Virus record (IMG/VR): IMGVR_UViG_3300030118_002002
Span: 1 to 64,000 of that record
Length of the DNA: 64,000 nt
Strand: one strand, 5' to 3'
Source: a virus
In this document: piece after piece, positions 53,914 to 62,296 of the stretch
Layout: the number at the start of each line of letters is the position of its first letter
How positions within the stretch are numbered: position 1 is the first letter of the stretch
The notes under the pieces: generated by a model
Seen by the model: the letters and a program-made list of their open reading frames with translations, nothing else
Told to the model about the DNA's origin: nothing
Databases searched by the model: none
Translations under genes and position numbers: made by a program

Positions 53914-54152
53914 TTGATGAGTGACTGATCATTGCTCATGGAAGTGGCAGAATAACCCTGTTGGAATTTGGCGGGGTAATGCATCAAGTTAGAGGTGGTA
54001 CTCGCCCTCCCTAAAGGAGGTGAACCTTTACCAGAGGAACTTGAGTTGAACAGTACAAATTTTCGCTCTAGCGATTCCCTGTTCATGTCGGTACGAAAGT
54101 AATCCTTCCTTCCCCTTTTCGTTATAACATAGGAAGACCCTTCTGGGTCTTC
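53914..54152 (+). ncRNA. Candidate structured non-coding RNA
   Basis: Bases 53903-54219 carry no convincing gene. The stretch starts at an exact late promoter and ends in an intrinsic terminator, predicting an RNA of roughly 230 bases. It folds locally: CCTCC/GGAGG (54006-54020), TGAACAG (54047-54053) pairing with CTGTTCA (54079-54085) around an inner TCGC-TCTA-GCGA hairpin (54063-54074), and ATGAG/CTCAT near 53917-53939. No tRNA cloverleaf or T-loop was found. A tiny frame (MHQVRGGTRPP) ends before the CCTCC hairpin. Its family is unknown to me. Confidence 0.5.
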
Positions 54153-56023: not shown

Positions 56024-56476
56024 ATGGCAAAACTACCACCTAATCCTCTTGTTTCTGAGATACTCAGAGCAGCTCATGGTGCTAAAACTGTTGAGAAAAA
56101 AGTAGAAGTACTTACAAAGTACAAGAGAGATGATGTAAAAGCATGTTTGATTTGGAACTTTGATAAAGCAATCAGAAGTGCTATTCCTGAGGGAGATGTC
56201 CCTTACAAACCAAATGATGCTCCCATAGGAGTTGATGGAGGACATACACGTTTGATTCATGAGTGGAGATCACTCTACAATTTTATAAGAGGTGGTAACA
56301 ATAGACTATCTCAGATGAAACGTGAGACAATGCTAGTCCAGATGTTAGAGTCATTACATAAGGACGAGGCAGAAGTATTAGTTCTAGTGAAAGATAAAGA
56401 ACTACAAAGCAAGTATCGTATCACTAGAAACGTAGTAGAGAAAGCATATCCGGAGATAGTTTGGAAGGATAGGTGA
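56024..56476 (+). CDS. DUF6433 family protein
   Basis: This 150-residue protein has NPLVSEILRAAHGAKTVEKK, ACLIWNFDKAIRSAIPEGDVPYKPNDAP (in two parts), HTRLIHEWRSLYNFIRGGNN, LSQMKRETMLVQMLESLHKDEAE and RNVVEKAYPEIVW. I associate this pattern with DUF6433, a conserved cyanophage family, possibly transcription or replication related. It overlaps the radical SAM gene by 4 bases. Confidence 0.7.
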   Translation: MAKLPPNPLVSEILRAAHGAKTVEKKVEVLTKYKRDDVKACLIWNFDKAIRSAIPEGDVPYKPNDAPIGVDGGHTRLIHEWRSLYNFIRGGNNRLSQMKRETMLVQMLESLHKDEAEVLVLVKDKELQSKYRITRNVVEKAYPEIVWKDR

Positions 56477-57603
56477 AGTTCCTAATTGATCTGACAGATC
56501 ATTGCAACTCCAAGTGTCCTTTATGTGCTAGACATAAGACCTCATACAATGATGAGGTAGCGGTCTTGAAACCAGACCCATCTATGAATCGCTCTTCCAT
56601 ATCACTCGCTGATTGGAAGAGATGGTTTCCTATCGAGACTCTTAGAAAGACAGAACTGATATATTTTCAAGGATCATTCGGTGAACCCTCATTGAATGAG
56701 GATTTGTTAGACATATATTCTTACACTCTCAACGCTAACAGTAGTATAGTCTTCCAGATGAGTACCAATGGTGGTACACGAGACCAAGAGTTCTGGGGTA
56801 GACTAGGTGCTCTCATGGCATCATCACACAGAGATAGTTTTCTTATCTTTTCCATAGATGGTTTGTCAGATACTCTACAACAGTACAGAGTAGGTGTAGA
56901 TTATAATAAAGTTATAGACAGTGCTAGAGCATTTATAAAGGCAGGAGGTCCTGCTGTCTGGAGGATGCTAGTATTCAAACACAACCAACATCAAATCAAA
57001 CGATGTAGAAATCTTAGTAGACTGATGGGGTTCAAAGACTTCAGACATACTAATGTAAACGATCTATATGATGCTAGTGGTAAGGGAGATGGTACATTTA
57101 CATATGAATACAGGGGAGTGGTACATAAACTAGAGGGTGTTGATGGTCATGTGTTCCAGCAGCCACCCGCAGCAGAGGATACAGAGATTGATTGTAGGTA
57201 TGGTCATGGTATCAAGAGTCCTGGTCAACTTAGGATAGACAGTCGTGGTATTGTTCATGCTTGCTGCTTCCACCAGAGTAGACTACGCTTTTTCTATCCT
57301 GACTACTATGTTCATGGCGATATAGATTCCCCTGCTATCTACAGGGACATAAACAATCCTAACAAAGGAGTTGGTGCTGAGTATATGCAGAAAGTATTTT
57401 ACGATAGTATGATTCCACTCATAGAAAATCAGGGTGGGTTGAAATCTTTATCTTTAAAACATAATTCACTTGAGGATATATTAAACACGCCATTATTCCA
57501 GTGTACACTTGTAGAGTCATGGAATAAGAGACCTCATATTTGTTCAGATTATTGTGGTGTGAAAAGAAAAAATGTAACAACCGATACTAAATCACTTGAC
57601 TAA
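56473..57603 (+). CDS. Radical SAM protein with Cys-rich C-terminus
   Basis: This 376-residue protein starts at GTG 56473. CNSKCPLC at residues 11-18 is the CxxxCxxC [4Fe-4S]/SAM motif, FQGSFGEPSLNEDL gives the GGEP-like SAM contact, and FSIDGLSDTLQQYRVGV is typical of the barrel. The C-terminus has CRYGHG, HACCFHQ and CSDYCG, which look like SPASM/twitch auxiliary-cluster ligands. Such enzymes modify peptides or carbohydrates; the substrate is unknown. Confidence 0.8.
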   Translation: MKFLIDLTDHCNSKCPLCARHKTSYNDEVAVLKPDPSMNRSSISLADWKRWFPIETLRKTELIYFQGSFGEPSLNEDLLDIYSYTLNANSSIVFQMSTNGGTRDQEFWGRLGALMASSHRDSFLIFSIDGLSDTLQQYRVGVDYNKVIDSARAFIKAGGPAVWRMLVFKHNQHQIKRCRNLSRLMGFKDFRHTNVNDLYDASGKGDGTFTYEYRGVVHKLEGVDGHVFQQPPAAEDTEIDCRYGHGIKSPGQLRIDSRGIVHACCFHQSRLRFFYPDYYVHGDIDSPAIYRDINNPNKGVGAEYMQKVFYDSMIPLIENQGGLKSLSLKHNSLEDILNTPLFQCTLVESWNKRPHICSDYCGVKRKNVTTDTKSLD

Positions 57604-57631
57604 ATAATTTCGTCATGGTATCATGACATTA

Positions 57632-57691
57632 CGTTCATCACCTTCGGGTGACGCAAGTAAGCCGACACGGAACGGGTTCGTTCATCCCATG
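57632..57691 (+). promoter_or_regulatory. Glutamine-II (Downstream-peptide) riboswitch candidate
   Basis: CGTTC (57632-57636) pairs with GAACG (57670-57674) as the closing helix; TCACC-TTCG-GGTGA (57638-57651) is the inner hairpin; GACGCAAGTAAGCC (57650-57663) matches the conserved junction of the glnA/Downstream-peptide motif. A second CGTTC at 57679-57683 can pair instead with the same GAACG, giving two exclusive folds just before the start codon at 57689. Known members bind L-glutamine and sit before small peptides in marine cyanobacteria and their phages, exactly this context. Confidence 0.75.
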
Positions 57692-57853
57692 ATACTACAC
57701 TTGTTACTTTATGCTTCTCTTGAATGTTCTCAAGCATCTGCTCTAATTGATCAGATAATTAAGGACAACTTGTTGAGCGAGTACGAGAAAACGGAATTGA
57801 TTCTTTATGTAAGAGAAGCAACTCCTAGTTGTTGGGACGCAAATGCCGACTGA
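57689..57853 (+). CDS. Small protein under the glutamine-riboswitch candidate
   Basis: ATG 57689 gives 54 residues: MILHLLLYASLECSQASALI, a helical middle, then ILYVREATPSCWDANAD. The TPxCxWDAND-like end recalls a small cyanophage family. The frame is open from ATG 57623, but those 22 residues are encoded by the riboswitch and are probably not translated. Its function is unknown; in cyanobacteria such Downstream-peptide products relate to nitrogen regulation. Confidence 0.65.
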   Translation: MILHLLLYASLECSQASALIDQIIKDNLLSEYEKTELILYVREATPSCWDANAD

Positions 57854-57893
57854 AGGAACGGTCTAAACAACCTCATCCTACAGGAGAAAACCG

Positions 57894-58037
57894 ATGGCAA
57901 CAGTCACATACCGTGGTGTCGAGTACGACACCGAAGAGTACAACGCAAGAGTAATTGCGGAAGCAGACAAGCAAAGAAATCATGATCTAATGTATCGTGG
58001 TATCAAAGTAGAACGTAGGTTCGCTTCAAAAAGTTAA
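57894..58037 (+). CDS. DUF4278-like small protein, 47 residues
   Basis: ATG 57894 follows a strong ribosome site (CAGGAG). The product MATVTYRGVEYDTEEYNARV, then a helix and LMYRGIKVERRFASKS, contains two YRG blocks as in DUF4278, a small family common in cyanobacteria and cyanophages. A terminator follows. Confidence 0.75.
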   Translation: MATVTYRGVEYDTEEYNARVIAEADKQRNHDLMYRGIKVERRFASKS

Positions 58038-58056
58038 CTTTACTGCTTGTCTATTG

Positions 58057-58082
58057 GGAGGGTCTTGCACCCTCCTTTTTTT
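58057..58082 (+). terminator. Intrinsic terminator after the DUF4278 gene
   Basis: A seven-pair stem GGAGGGT/ACCCTCC with a CTTGC loop is followed by seven T residues. Confidence 0.93.
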
Positions 58083-58251: not shown

Positions 58252-58895
58252 ACGTCAAATTAGTAAGCATCACTCCTGATGCAGAAAAAACTATGGCATA
58301 CATTGCCAGAGTATCTAACCCATCTAATCAGGAGAATGAAAAGTATGCTGGTTTACTGAAGTATTGTATCAAGCACAATCACTGGTCAGTTTTTGAACAG
58401 GCAACAATGACTTTAGAGATAGGGACTACACGTGCTATTGCAGCACAGATTCTAAGGCATAGGTCATTCACGTTTCAAGAATTCAGTCAACGCTATGCAC
58501 AGACTGATCATCTAGGAGAGATTCCTATACCAGATCTCAGAAGACAGGACGAAAAGAATCGTCAGAACTCTACTGATGACTTGGATGAGTTTGTAAAACA
58601 GAAGTTAGAATTGCAGATAAAAACTTTGTTCAGTTCAGCAGAGGCATTGTATCATCAGATGCTAGAGGAGGGTGTTGCGAAGGAGTGTGCAAGGTTTGTT
58701 TTACCACTAGCAACACCTACAAAAATTTACATGACAGGGTCTTGTCGGTCTTGGATTCACTATATAAACTTAAGGTCTGCACACGGAACTCAAAAGGAAC
58801 ACATGGAGATCGCTAGGGAATGTGCCTGTATTTTTGCGGGACAATTCCCTGCTGTTGCAGAGGCACTAGGTTGGGAACACGGATCGCTGGCATAA
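58248..58895 (+). CDS. thyX: Flavin-dependent thymidylate synthase
   Basis: ThyX makes dTMP from dUMP with FAD. The signature RHRX7S is exact at R70-H71-R72 to S80 (LRHRSFTFQEFSQRY). HNHWSVFEQATMTLEI, ARFVLPLATPTKIYMTGSCR and INLRSAHGTQKEHMEIA are also typical. At 215 residues it is of normal length. It overlaps the next gene by 25 bases. Confidence 0.95.
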   Translation: MNVKLVSITPDAEKTMAYIARVSNPSNQENEKYAGLLKYCIKHNHWSVFEQATMTLEIGTTRAIAAQILRHRSFTFQEFSQRYAQTDHLGEIPIPDLRRQDEKNRQNSTDDLDEFVKQKLELQIKTLFSSAEALYHQMLEEGVAKECARFVLPLATPTKIYMTGSCRSWIHYINLRSAHGTQKEHMEIARECACIFAGQFPAVAEALGWEHGSLA

Positions 58896-59905
58896 ATTTA
58901 TCCAAGAATGGTTCTCTCGCTATCATAAATGATGGGAAGGTCGAGTTTTATCTAGAAGAAGAAAGACTCAGTAGAATCAAGAGAGATCGTGGTGCAAAAT
59001 TTTTGGTAGAAAAATACCTTGATGGAGTAGATGCTGTTGCTATATGTGATTGTTATACAAAGTATTATCCTAAGAAGTTTTTACAGAGAACTAAGGAGAA
59101 GGAAGCAGTTTGTAAAGTCATAAGAAATAAGAACATACCGATACTAGATTACAGACAGAGACATCATGAGTGTCATGCTGCTAACGCACGTTACGGATCA
59201 CCATTTGATGACTGTGCTGTCTTAGTAATGGACGGTAAAGGATCAGTTCATGATCACAATAACCTTAGATTTTGTGAGATTGAAAGTATATTTGATAACT
59301 TTAATCCTGTGTTCAAACACTACTCTACCTTCTGGAGTGAAGATGAATGTAAAAAATTAGAGAAACCATATTGGGAATCAATGAATACACAGGAACTATT
59401 CATGGAGGGTGAGGACTGTCATAGTGAGAATACAGATGGTTTTATACTCTATAGTGATAGGACTAGCGTTGGACAGGCATATAGAAGGGTCTCAAGAGAG
59501 TGTGGGTTTGATGAGTTAGATGCAGGGAAGACAATGGGACTGTCAGCATATGGATCTGGACGTGTTGATTTATTCAATGAAGAGTATGGTCATAGTCTTT
59601 GTAGCAAAGAATTATATGCGAAGGAAGATAGCACAGGATACTATGGTAATCAAAAACCAGTAGACCTAGCATATAATTTACAAAAGTCAGCAGAAAAACA
59701 TGCAATATACATGGTAGCGATGGCAATAAATCTAACAAATAATAAGAATGTGTGTGTAACTGGTGGTTTTTTCTTGAATTGTGTAGCAAATAACGCTATC
59801 ATAAAAAATGTAGATGTAAATCTATATGCAGACCCACTCTCTTATGATGGTGGTCTAGCAATAGGTTCAGCATTACTTGCATACTATGAACATTTTCGTA
59901 ACTGA
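58871..59905 (+). CDS. Carbamoyltransferase N-terminal domain protein (A)
   Basis: This matches the Kae1-like N-terminal domain of NodU/TobZ carbamoyltransferases: GINLSKNGSLAIINDGKVEF, YLEEERLSRIKRDRG, RQRHHECHAANARYGSPFDD, DAGKTMGLSAYGSG and VCVTGGFFLNCVANN with DGGLAIGSALLAYYEH. The C-terminal domain is absent and appears as a separate gene at 60891. No ATG lies at the right place; TTG 58871 (344 residues) is my choice, with thyX overlapped by 25 bases. The function would be O-carbamoylation of a sugar or small molecule using carbamoyl phosphate and ATP. Confidence 0.8.
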   Translation: MGTRIAGINLSKNGSLAIINDGKVEFYLEEERLSRIKRDRGAKFLVEKYLDGVDAVAICDCYTKYYPKKFLQRTKEKEAVCKVIRNKNIPILDYRQRHHECHAANARYGSPFDDCAVLVMDGKGSVHDHNNLRFCEIESIFDNFNPVFKHYSTFWSEDECKKLEKPYWESMNTQELFMEGEDCHSENTDGFILYSDRTSVGQAYRRVSRECGFDELDAGKTMGLSAYGSGRVDLFNEEYGHSLCSKELYAKEDSTGYYGNQKPVDLAYNLQKSAEKHAIYMVAMAINLTNNKNVCVTGGFFLNCVANNAIIKNVDVNLYADPLSYDGGLAIGSALLAYYEHFRN

Positions 59906-60401
59906 TCCATCACCTGTTGTATCGGCACAAGTATTACCTGACAAACACATAGTCAAGATGCCACTAGAGACATGTCAAATGCTTTCTATTGTGTGCTCTG
60001 AGAAGTGGGGTCACGGTTATGGTGAGATACATCGTATCAATGGTGAACCATACAAAACATCTAAAGGTGCGTTTCATAACCACCCTTGTACTATCTGGGC
60101 AAATGAATCACTCATCAATACATGGTGGTTAGTTGCTCATGGTATAGGACTGTGTCAGGAATACACCCACAGATATAATAAGATACATAGTTGTCAGAGA
60201 ACGTTAGAAGAAGCAAAGAGTATCATACCGTTTGGTTATCACAATACACCAGAGTCATTCACCTTTGCAGGTCCTGACCAGTTCAAGCATGACAAAACTA
60301 TTGATATCTTTACTGCTTACAAACGTTACATTGCCTCTAAACCTTGGGTCGCAAACAATTATTTGCGTGACCCATCTCGTAAACCTTCTTGGATATTATG
60401 A
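59886..60401 (+). CDS. Pyrimidine-dimer glycosylase-like (Pyr_excise) protein
   Basis: ATG 59886 gives 171 residues. MNIFVTDPSPVVSAQVLPDK, HIVKMPLETCQMLSIVCSEK, WANESLINTWWLVAHGIGLC and EYTHRYNKIHSC recall small phage proteins annotated as pyrimidine dimer DNA glycosylase or a related family. The exact activity is not certain. It overlaps the carbamoyltransferase gene by 20 bases, separating the two halves of that enzyme. Confidence 0.5.
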   Translation: MNIFVTDPSPVVSAQVLPDKHIVKMPLETCQMLSIVCSEKWGHGYGEIHRINGEPYKTSKGAFHNHPCTIWANESLINTWWLVAHGIGLCQEYTHRYNKIHSCQRTLEEAKSIIPFGYHNTPESFTFAGPDQFKHDKTIDIFTAYKRYIASKPWVANNYLRDPSRKPSWIL

Positions 60402-60559
60402 ACCCAATTGACACAAATCGTATCGCTGTTGCACTTGAAAGAATTGCACAAGCACTTGAGCATTTGAACATTGAACATGCTCATATAGATACAATAGATC
60501 ACAATCACATTGAGAGTGACACTCCCGTTGAAGTAAACACACACGCTAAAACATGGTAA
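60398..60559 (+). CDS. Small hypothetical protein, 53 residues
   Basis: ATG 60398 to TAA 60559 encodes MNPIDTNRIAVALERIAQAL, then a His-rich part (EHLNIEHAHIDTIDHNHIES). The His/Asp/Glu content could bind metal. It overlaps both neighbours, supporting translation. Confidence 0.6.
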   Translation: MNPIDTNRIAVALERIAQALEHLNIEHAHIDTIDHNHIESDTPVEVNTHAKTW

Positions 60560-60894
60560 AATTATTTGCAGCATGCCCTCCTGTATACACACTACCTGGT
60601 ACATGGGATGATCCTGAGAAGATAAAGAGATGTCAAGAGACATTGATACCACACCTTGAACTCCAACCTGAGATAGGGTTCTTAGTTTTTATAGGACTTG
60701 TTGTCTTTGCTCTTATCATCTATGGTATATACAAAACCTTTGGTAAAGGTGGAGAAGGATTGAGAGATGAGATCAAGGAACATGCTAGGATGCATGAACT
60801 TGGTATCGCTCATGGACATGAAGGTGGTGGAGAAAGACCTATCATGTCTATAAAGGCACAAGAAAAAGATTACCCTCAACACAAACACGAATGA
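60553..60894 (+). CDS. Single-span membrane protein with His-rich tail
   Basis: In this 113-residue protein, residues 43-64 (FLVFIGLVVFALIIYGIYKT) form the span, and the C-terminal part is rich in His, Gly and Glu (EHARMHELGIAHGHEGGG). No family was recognised. It overlaps the carbamoyltransferase C-domain gene by 4 bases. Confidence 0.6.
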   Translation: MVKLFAACPPVYTLPGTWDDPEKIKRCQETLIPHLELQPEIGFLVFIGLVVFALIIYGIYKTFGKGGEGLRDEIKEHARMHELGIAHGHEGGGERPIMSIKAQEKDYPQHKHE

Positions 60895-61490
60895 TTGAAA
60901 CCCTTTACTTTGGACCTACTTACGACCTTCAGAATATAGAAGGTGACACCGTTACTTCCTATCAAGTAGCACAACTTTTGGCAGATAGGAATAGCGTTGC
61001 CATCTTTCAAGGACGGTCAGAAGCAGGACCCAGAGCATTAGGTAATAGATCTATCTTGTATGATCCAAGAGACCCTGACGGTAAAGACAAGATTAATTTG
61101 ATCAAAAGAAGAGAGTCCTTTAGACCATTCGCTGGCAGTGTGCTACTACCTCATGCACACAAATGGTTTGATATGGCAGGACTCGTTGAGTCTCCTTTCA
61201 TGATGTATGCTGTAGATGCTTTACCACATACACATGATAAAATCCCTGCTGTATTACATGTAGATAAGACTTGTAGGGTACAAACTGTTGACATGAAAGA
61301 CAATCTAAATTACTATCAATTGATTGATGCTTTCTATCAGATTACTGATGTGCCTATGCTATTCAACACATCATTCAACATGGCAGGAGAACCTCTAGTG
61401 GAGACACCTGAGGATGCAATCAGAACCTTTGAGGATAGTGCAATAGATTATCTTTACTTTCCTGAGGTGCATAAGCTCAGGCAAAAATGA
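60891..61490 (+). CDS. Carbamoyltransferase C-terminal domain protein
   Basis: This 199-residue protein is the YrdC-like C-terminal domain of the NodU/CmcH family, here free-standing. Family blocks: VAIFQGRSEAGPRALGNRSI, LYDPRDPDGKDKINLIKRRE, SFRPFAGSVL, LFNTSFNMAGEPLVETPEDA and IRTF. In normal enzymes this domain makes the carbamoyl-adenylate, which the N-domain transfers. It probably partners one or both N-domain genes at 58871 and 61487. Confidence 0.88.
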   Translation: MIETLYFGPTYDLQNIEGDTVTSYQVAQLLADRNSVAIFQGRSEAGPRALGNRSILYDPRDPDGKDKINLIKRRESFRPFAGSVLLPHAHKWFDMAGLVESPFMMYAVDALPHTHDKIPAVLHVDKTCRVQTVDMKDNLNYYQLIDAFYQITDVPMLFNTSFNMAGEPLVETPEDAIRTFEDSAIDYLYFPEVHKLRQK

Positions 61491-62296
61491 CTTTTAGTTT
61501 CCCAGAAACTGGAAAAAAAACTCCGGCAAAAAAATGGGTTGTAGGGTTCAACCTATCAAACAATGGGTCGGTATGTTTATTGGAGTATGGTAAACCAAAA
61601 TTATATCTGGAGTCAGAAAGAGTAACAAGGAACAAGTGGGATCATAAGGTCAGTTCCTTGTTACCATATCTACCAGAAGGAATTGAACACGTAGCCTTGA
61701 CTGACTCATTCTGGACTCAAGGTGATAAGAGATTAGATAATATAAAAGACATATCAAATATAAAAAAGAAATATCCTAACGCTAGATTGTATGACTATAG
61801 ATCTATGCATCATCTAACTCATGCTGCATGTGCTTTTTATAACTCTGGGTTTACTGAAGCATCTTGTGTGGTTGTAGACTCTAATGGTTCTAAGACAAGC
61901 GAAGGACTAGAGATAGAATCTATTTTCGTAGCACCCACATTCGTAGAGACACACAAGAGATACTTCTCACCTGAGTTCGTAGGTATTGGTAGATTATTTG
62001 AAGAGACTGCTAAGACATATGAATGGGACTACAGAGATGCAGGGAAGGTCATGGGTCTGAGTGCATACAATCATGACCCTGCTTCTACCATACAAAAAAG
62101 ATGGGAGAGAAGATACAGAGAACTAATAGAAATGACAACAGGAGATGTATGTTTGTCAGGTGGTTGCTTCTTGAACTGTGTTGCTAACTATAAGATACAA
62201 AAGATGTACCCTCATATAAATTTCTATGTCGAACCTGTTGCTCATGATGGTGGCACTGCAATGGGTGCAGCATATCTAGCGTATTATGAGACCTAA
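61487..62296 (+). CDS. Carbamoyltransferase N-terminal domain protein (B)
   Basis: This is a 269-residue second Kae1-like domain: GFNLSNNGSVCLLEYGKPKL, YLESERVTRNKWDHK, RSMHHLTHAACAFYNSGFTE, DAGKVMGLSAYNHD and VCLSGGCFLNCVANY with HDGGTAMGAAYLAYYE. It is about 75 residues shorter than copy A and clearly diverged. With copy A it offers two alternative acceptor-side subunits for a single C-domain. Confidence 0.82.
   Translation: MTFSFPETGKKTPAKKWVVGFNLSNNGSVCLLEYGKPKLYLESERVTRNKWDHKVSSLLPYLPEGIEHVALTDSFWTQGDKRLDNIKDISNIKKKYPNARLYDYRSMHHLTHAACAFYNSGFTEASCVVVDSNGSKTSEGLEIESIFVAPTFVETHKRYFSPEFVGIGRLFEETAKTYEWDYRDAGKVMGLSAYNHDPASTIQKRWERRYRELIEMTTGDVCLSGGCFLNCVANYKIQKMYPHINFYVEPVAHDGGTAMGAAYLAYYET

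Follow-up and report, generated by a model that had tools for sequence, protein, structure and literature searches.

Glutamine-sensing RNAs of the Rfam families RF01739 (glnA, type 1) and RF01704 (Glutamine-II) provide the closest comparisons for the phage element described here. In the crystal structure, glutamine is contacted by C1, G2, G18, C19, C39, G40 and G41 (PMC6698751). Type 2 glutamine riboswitches control DUF4278 genes in marine picocyanobacteria, activating on glutamine (PMC6316151), and 157 tandem doublets of consecutive glutamine aptamers have been reported (PMC9481103). Glutamine riboswitch RNA has also been predicted in cyanophages and in pelagiphage/OM43-phage, in three reports whose accessible text describes neither nesting nor an open reading frame (ORF) in the aptamer (PMC9602691, PMC9964418, PMC9004378). 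Phage glutamine riboswitches and tandem doublets are already known; in the accessible literature that was surveyed, neither glutamine cores that interleave nor a gene within the hairpin loop of a riboswitch is described, so the nested architecture is possibly new. ORFs in the peripheral loops of a structured RNA, as seen here, are also a feature of group I introns, but those introns are ribozymes that splice themselves and carry endonuclease genes, unlike a leader aptamer for a metabolite.

The phage element shares with RF01704 the CGUUC/GAACGG core, linking residues of the C19–G41 type (CGC), a hairpin after CGUUCA and a DUF4278 gene downstream, and it differs in lacking P2 and in having two interleaved cores, whereas host copies are single. 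All the parts of RF01739, namely P1 (CGUUC/GAACG), a P2 hairpin, loop E (AGUA/GAA) and P3, are found in the outer phage aptamer; however, P3 is closed by a permuted, gene-carrying core rather than a short loop, and C-G takes the place of G-C as the long-range pair. Tandem doublets likewise place two glutamine cores in one leader, but in the phage element the cores exchange strands and enclose a coding sequence. Glutamine-II occurs in 42 of the 61 host-family genomes, and the host copies examined are single aptamers with no ORF in the loop, the recovered reading frames being usually DUF4278-like. Among these 61 genomes the nested junction was found only in a single-cell assembly (L272) that also holds a phage-like contig (L057); two further host pattern matches to the nested module lie in unrelated sequence and were taken as chance.

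The Rfam match and its relatives

The window, that is, the whole stretch of 64,000 nucleotides analysed, comes from a marine cyanobacterial virus and has a match to RF01704 at positions 57629–57682 (36.2 bits, above the cutoff of 33; E 3.5e-5 for the whole window), which is the sole one in the entire 68 kb virus record. A preliminary description had proposed a Glutamine-II riboswitch controlling a 54-residue protein at this site, and the sequence elements that it named are all present: CGTTC (57632–57636), a TTCG-capped TCACC/GGTGA hairpin (57638–57651), the CGCAAGTAAGCC junction (57652–57663), GAACG (57670–57674) and a second CGTTC (57679–57683). A glutamine-riboswitch relative 5′ of the protein is upheld by the Rfam match and by conservation among phages, but the 54-residue ORF is not a plain downstream output because an RNA hairpin loop encloses it. 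The capacity for CGUUC/GAACG pairing and the binding residues CGC ... GGAACGG lie within 57632–57675 and are kept in all phages fetched by similarity. The helices are not broken without compensation among relatives, in which the TCACC/GGTGA hairpin varies with compensatory changes.

Despite passing the cutoff, the element is not the canonical Glutamine-II aptamer first supposed, because the local P2 helix that defines Glutamine-II is absent from the phage cores. In 11 host copies P2 has 5–7 bp, mostly 6, whereas the longest local helix has 3 bp in 64 of 70 distinct phage cores among the matches listed. A search for a local P2 found none for either core, and the cmscan alignment of the window to RF01704 contains mismatches and deletions within P2. 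The missing helix also accounts for the low Rfam scores of the phage elements, with scores of 20–36 for each core alone and the RF01704 cutoff reached by one of 23 phage records. Against RF01739 (cutoff 35 bits), the window-type local match scores 30.1, the outer aptamer, with its ORF-size insert, lying beyond the reach of the model; core 2 of phage P-TIM68 alone, an ordinary short hairpin aptamer, reaches 35.4 bits. The possibility that a second Glutamine-II aptamer lies, complete and local, ahead of the DUF4278 gene was considered and rejected, as its 5′ CGTTC is absent locally and the strand instead precedes the 54-residue ORF.

By similarity rather than by RNA pattern, many T4-like cyanophages were found to carry the locus, with 154 records matched at the DNA level and 239 through the 54-residue protein. 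Both cores are present in all 24 diverse loci examined (23 named phages and one single-cell virus record), and the ORF lies inside loop 2 in 23 of them; CGTTCAT immediately precedes its start, and its end carries GGGACGCAAA...GAAGGAACGG in slightly varying form. P-TIM68 is without the ORF, its RNA measuring approximately 100 nt; aligned with the window, its cores and DUF4278 gene match and the ORF is absent at the P2i hairpin. Two DNA patterns neutral to P3 were run on viral contigs and combined with the earlier loci, giving at least 190 distinct cyanophage modules; because CGTTC, GAACGG and CGCA were fixed in the patterns by which this set was for the most part chosen, invariance at those motifs is no evidence.

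Probable nested fold of the two cores

The second CGTTC (from 57679) supplies the 5′ strand of another core, with the 3′ half of that core following approximately 150 nt downstream, at 57833–57861. Its pairing with GAACG had been described as a competing fold; the hairpin itself was borne out, not as a mere competitor but as helix P1i of a nested double aptamer (Table 1). The predicted outer aptamer is glnA-like, comprising P1o (CGUUC(1)/GAACG(2)), P2o, loop E (AGUA/GAA) and a long-range P3. Within P3 the putative second core is circularly permuted, with P1i formed by GAACG(1)/CGUUC(2) and P2i looped by the entire 54-residue gene. This nested double-core architecture is well supported by the comparison of sequences.

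Table 1. Features of the nested element and its two-gene unit in the window.
Feature	Positions	Strand	Basis or comment
Sigma-70-like promoter TTGACT-17-TATCAT	57596–57624	+	10 of 12 matches; -10 box ends 7 nt before first CGTTC
CGUUC(1), P1o 5′ strand, partner GAACG 57856–57860	57632–57636	+	RNAalifold consensus, window MFE; invariant, no covariation
P2o outer hairpin UCACC-UUCG-GGUGA	57638–57651	+	Pair comparison across relatives
Core-1 linking strand CGCAAGUA with loop-E AGUA	57652–57659	+	Kept in all relatives
P3 5′ strand AGCCGACA, partner 57844–57851 across ORF	57660–57667	+	Compensatory changes
P1i hairpin GAACG-GGUU-CGUUC; 3′ strand opens second core	57670–57683	+	RNAalifold, MFE
P2i 5′ strand UCCCAUG, including start codon 57689–57691	57685–57691	+	Native versus swapped stems; AUG coverage
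54-residue ORF in P2i loop (PHROG 504, T4-GC 430, Syn9 gp197)	57689–57853	+	Similarity, profile searches
P2i 3′ strand UGGGA and core-2 linking strand CGCAAA; codes the near-C-terminal WDA of the ORF	57833–57843	+	Locus comparison, native versus swapped stems
P3 3′ strand UGCCGACU	57844–57851	+	Compensatory changes
UGA stop (57851–57853), loop-E GAA (57852–57854), GAACG(2) (57856–57860) closing P1o	57851–57861	+	
CCUACAG overlapping Shine-Dalgarno AGGAG (57882–57886)	57877–57886	+	Complementarity to 57850–57856
47-residue DUF4278 protein (PF14105; PHROG 5049), downstream gene	57894–58037	+	Profile searches
Terminator-like hairpin and T run, end of two-gene unit	58056–58076	+	

As the P1 strands are invariant, they do not discriminate between pairings, and the choice between nested and tandem cores rests on P3, on the partition of loop E and on folding energies. 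Loop E is divided, with AGUA in core 1 only and GAA in core 2 only, and the 5′ half of core 1 together with the 3′ half of core 2 is the sole combination that has both loop-E strands. Both cores retain the glutamine-contacting residues in every phage that the similarity searches brought in.

Among the matches listed, the strands of P3 are complementary across the ORF and co-vary, as AGUCG/CGACU, AAUCG/CGAUU, AUUCG/CGAAU and AGUCA/UGACU and, in a longer class, as AGCCGACA/UGYYGACU versus AGCCGACU/AGYYGACU, with ACA/UG- versus ACU/AG-. The AUUCG/CGAAU pair is that of P-RSM4. For distinct haplotypes of the short class within these matches, 39 of 40 pairs form in register compared with at most 12 of 32 in slid registers, and 32 of 20,000 swaps were equally good. 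The long class, from the same matches, forms 90 of 120 pairs, with 4 of 20,000 swaps equally good and slid registers far worse. At position 3 of P3 (57662 with 57849) the longer class has a conserved C-A mismatch, which might be a protonated wobble or make a tertiary contact; this position is unpaired in 71 of 181 composites among the matches listed.

The stems that enclose ORFs show the same dependence on their native partner. Inner stems have a native run of 5.78 compared with 4.83 when swapped, and outer stems 5.38 compared with 3.74, with none of 5,000 shuffles as high in either case (among the matches listed). When one module was taken per ORF cluster (88 clusters among the matches listed), the native excess persisted for both P3 and the inner stem. 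The contiguous P2i stem of the window is UCCCA/UGGGA; in P-HM2 the pairing is UCCUUA/UAAGGA, and the protein is without the otherwise nearly invariant Trp encoded there.

RNAalifold freely chose the nested topology both on the 181 composites from the matches listed, with a value of -21.6 versus -15.0 for the tandem fold, and on 15 natural, contiguous ORF-less RNAs from the same matches. In these 15 RNAs the nested structure has 94.4% of cells paired, compared with at most 55.6% for slid alternatives, and 10 pairs are changed on both sides. P3 is absent from the unconstrained RNAalifold consensus of either set and therefore rests on covariation. The minimum free energy (MFE) structure of the window RNA (57629–57870) forms P1o, P1i and P2i; when the next 30 nt are added, the same calculation slightly favours a different fold, a behaviour that is switch-like but not proof of a switch.

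Genes and signals of the module

Either hairpin loop can be short or can hold a gene, and all four combinations were seen. Measured from CGTTC to the next CGC among the matches listed, short hairpins span 18–53 nt (outer) and 17–33 nt (inner), and gene-size hairpins 196–240 nt (outer) and 144–201 nt (inner). In terms of outer/inner occupancy, these matches comprise 120 short/gene, 39 gene/gene, 15 short/short and 14 gene/short modules.

The inner ORF starts 9–11 nt after the start of CGTTC, and its stop codon, TGA or TAA, lies at the identical core nucleotide in 154 of 161 modules (both among the matches listed). At least one base of the AUG belongs to the contiguous inner stem in 143 of 161 modules among the matches listed, all three bases in 52 and none in 18. 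Since the start codon thus touches the P2i stem and the stop codon lies in P3/loop E, translation and ligand binding would compete for the same nucleotides. Inner ORFs evolve as protein-coding sequences, with a pN/pS of 0.26 and differences mostly at third positions. The 54-residue protein matches PHROG 504 and no Pfam family. AlphaFold2 models it as a small protein of four helices (30 sequences from the window and loci; mean pLDDT of 83 and pTM of 0.63), and neither this model nor the family searches gave a function. Two cysteines, the C-terminal D-A and the final D are all invariant in the family; because the 3′ half of the aptamer encodes the conserved WDAND end, conservation there may be due to the RNA no less than to the protein.

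The gene in the outer loop belongs to a different small-protein family, PHROG 6471 (66–68 residues; T4-GC 429 and 936), found in the outer hairpin loop of five loci (L017, L020, L022, L023 and L031). Its ORF ends at a UAA within CGCAAGUAA in 22 of the 52 outer-gene modules among the matches listed. The two families show weak profile similarity (hhalign E 0.0004, probability 35%).

A -10-like TANNNT is located 7–9 nt before CGTTC in 151 of 185 modules among the matches listed, and the sigma-70-like promoter of the window suggests that the transcript starts at the first core. The segment GGTATCATG (57616–57624), complementary to the start-codon region CATGATACT, was set aside, as it shares positions with the -10 box and transcription probably starts 3′ of it. 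Just upstream of the riboswitch is a gene for a radical SAM protein (56473–57603, plus strand) with weak SPASM similarity, the TAA stop of which shares bases with both the riboswitch promoter and a T4-late-like TAAATA.

The DUF4278 gene starts forty nt past the 54-residue ORF; its product scores 26.0 bits with PF14105, against a cutoff of 25.3. Among the matches listed, this gene is next in 168 of the 169 modules long enough to tell, and its Shine-Dalgarno sequence is 45–51 nt out instead of approximately 22 in 16 of 177. In syn9 (L022) and Syn19 (L023) an extra 25–30 nt, which may contain a small hairpin, follow core 2 before that Shine-Dalgarno sequence. Elsewhere in the window, a manA RNA, of a candidate-riboswitch family that cyanophages are known to carry, scores 110 bits with RF01745 at 53918–54118 (plus strand); in P-RSM6 and P-TIM40 a manA RNA lies between the DUF4278 gene and talC. 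A carbamoyltransferase in pieces occupies 58820–62296 (plus strand), with an N-domain (58820–59905), a C-domain (60891–61490) and a second N-domain (61487–62296), and looks like a split gene; between its pieces are a T4 endonuclease V-like pyrimidine dimer glycosylase (59877–60401) and two small ORFs.

Proposed switching and alternative readings

The Shine-Dalgarno region of the DUF4278 gene is complementary to CURAAG, a segment that contributes to P3, to loop E and to the start of P1o. In the window, CCUACAG can pair with CUGAAGG with one A-A mismatch. Among the matches listed, CUAAAG has U opposite in 36 of 36 cases, and CUGAAG has C opposite in 50 and U in 46; the anti-Shine-Dalgarno helix is weak in P-TIM68-like phages. 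L-glutamine is the inferred ligand, and its binding would stabilise the whole fold. With the fold formed, the start region of the nested ORF would be double-stranded and the ORF shut, and because CURAAG would be held in P3, loop E and P1o, aptamer folding should free the ribosome site of the DUF4278 gene. At low glutamine the fold would open, the 54-residue protein would be translated and CURAAG would be free to pair with the Shine-Dalgarno sequence. The aptamer could not be folded while ribosomes occupy the ORF, and vice versa, so that one RNA would control two small proteins oppositely, high glutamine turning the nested ORF off and DUF4278 on, and low glutamine the reverse. It is probable, judged from sequence comparison and predicted folds, that a nested double glutamine aptamer opens a two-gene phage transcript, with the ligand and regulation as proposed. 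We lean slightly towards the more general reading of a gene-enclosing metabolite aptamer with interlocked cores and interchangeable gene slots, the nested and downstream genes of which would be switched oppositely during infection.

The commonness of glutamine doublets, the single-core Rfam scores and the passing of the glnA cutoff by core 2 of P-TIM68 would also suit two ordinary, self-closing tandem aptamers with the 54-residue gene between or across them, sensing glutamine pseudo-cooperatively as in the known doublets. We regard this arrangement as improbable: local P2 and P3 are missing from both cores, both loop-E strands come together only across the cores, P3 covaries between the cores and the nested energy is better. 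A degenerate aptamer, which has lost glutamine binding and is kept for another purpose such as translational control or RNA stability, would be consistent with most phage cores falling below the Rfam cutoff. It too is unlikely, as the low scores are accounted for by the missing local P2, and the glutamine contacts of the crystal structure are retained in both cores of phages fetched by similarity rather than by pattern. The motifs are short, as a chance resemblance or compositional artefact would require, but the E value of the window match, the conservation in hundreds of phages and the shuffled and slid controls already refute this explanation, to which we give practically no weight.

The direction of control is the point on which a different reading deserves more consideration. 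With the same nested architecture, glutamine or translation of the ORF might turn both genes on, the ORF serving as a translated leader. This is possible, if doubtful. The stop codon overlaps CURAAG at a fixed site, so that a terminating ribosome would cover the anti-Shine-Dalgarno strand and could, on this less favoured account, keep CURAAG off the DUF4278 Shine-Dalgarno sequence. Pairing of the start region in the folded state speaks against control in one direction, however, and ORF-less phages retain both the module and DUF4278, which indicates that the ORF is dispensable for the downstream gene.

The nested architecture would explain why these cyanophage elements score poorly in Rfam. Riboswitches are taught as leaders 5′ of a gene, whereas here the aptamer itself incorporates the coding sequence. 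If the proposal is true, the element is a natural circularly permuted, interleaved aptamer, and it would directly connect small proteins of the phage with the glutamine status of its host. One of these proteins belongs to the DUF4278 group, whose relatives include the N-terminus of IF17, an inactivating factor of glutamine synthetase. Two cyanophage small-protein families would also gain a regulatory context.
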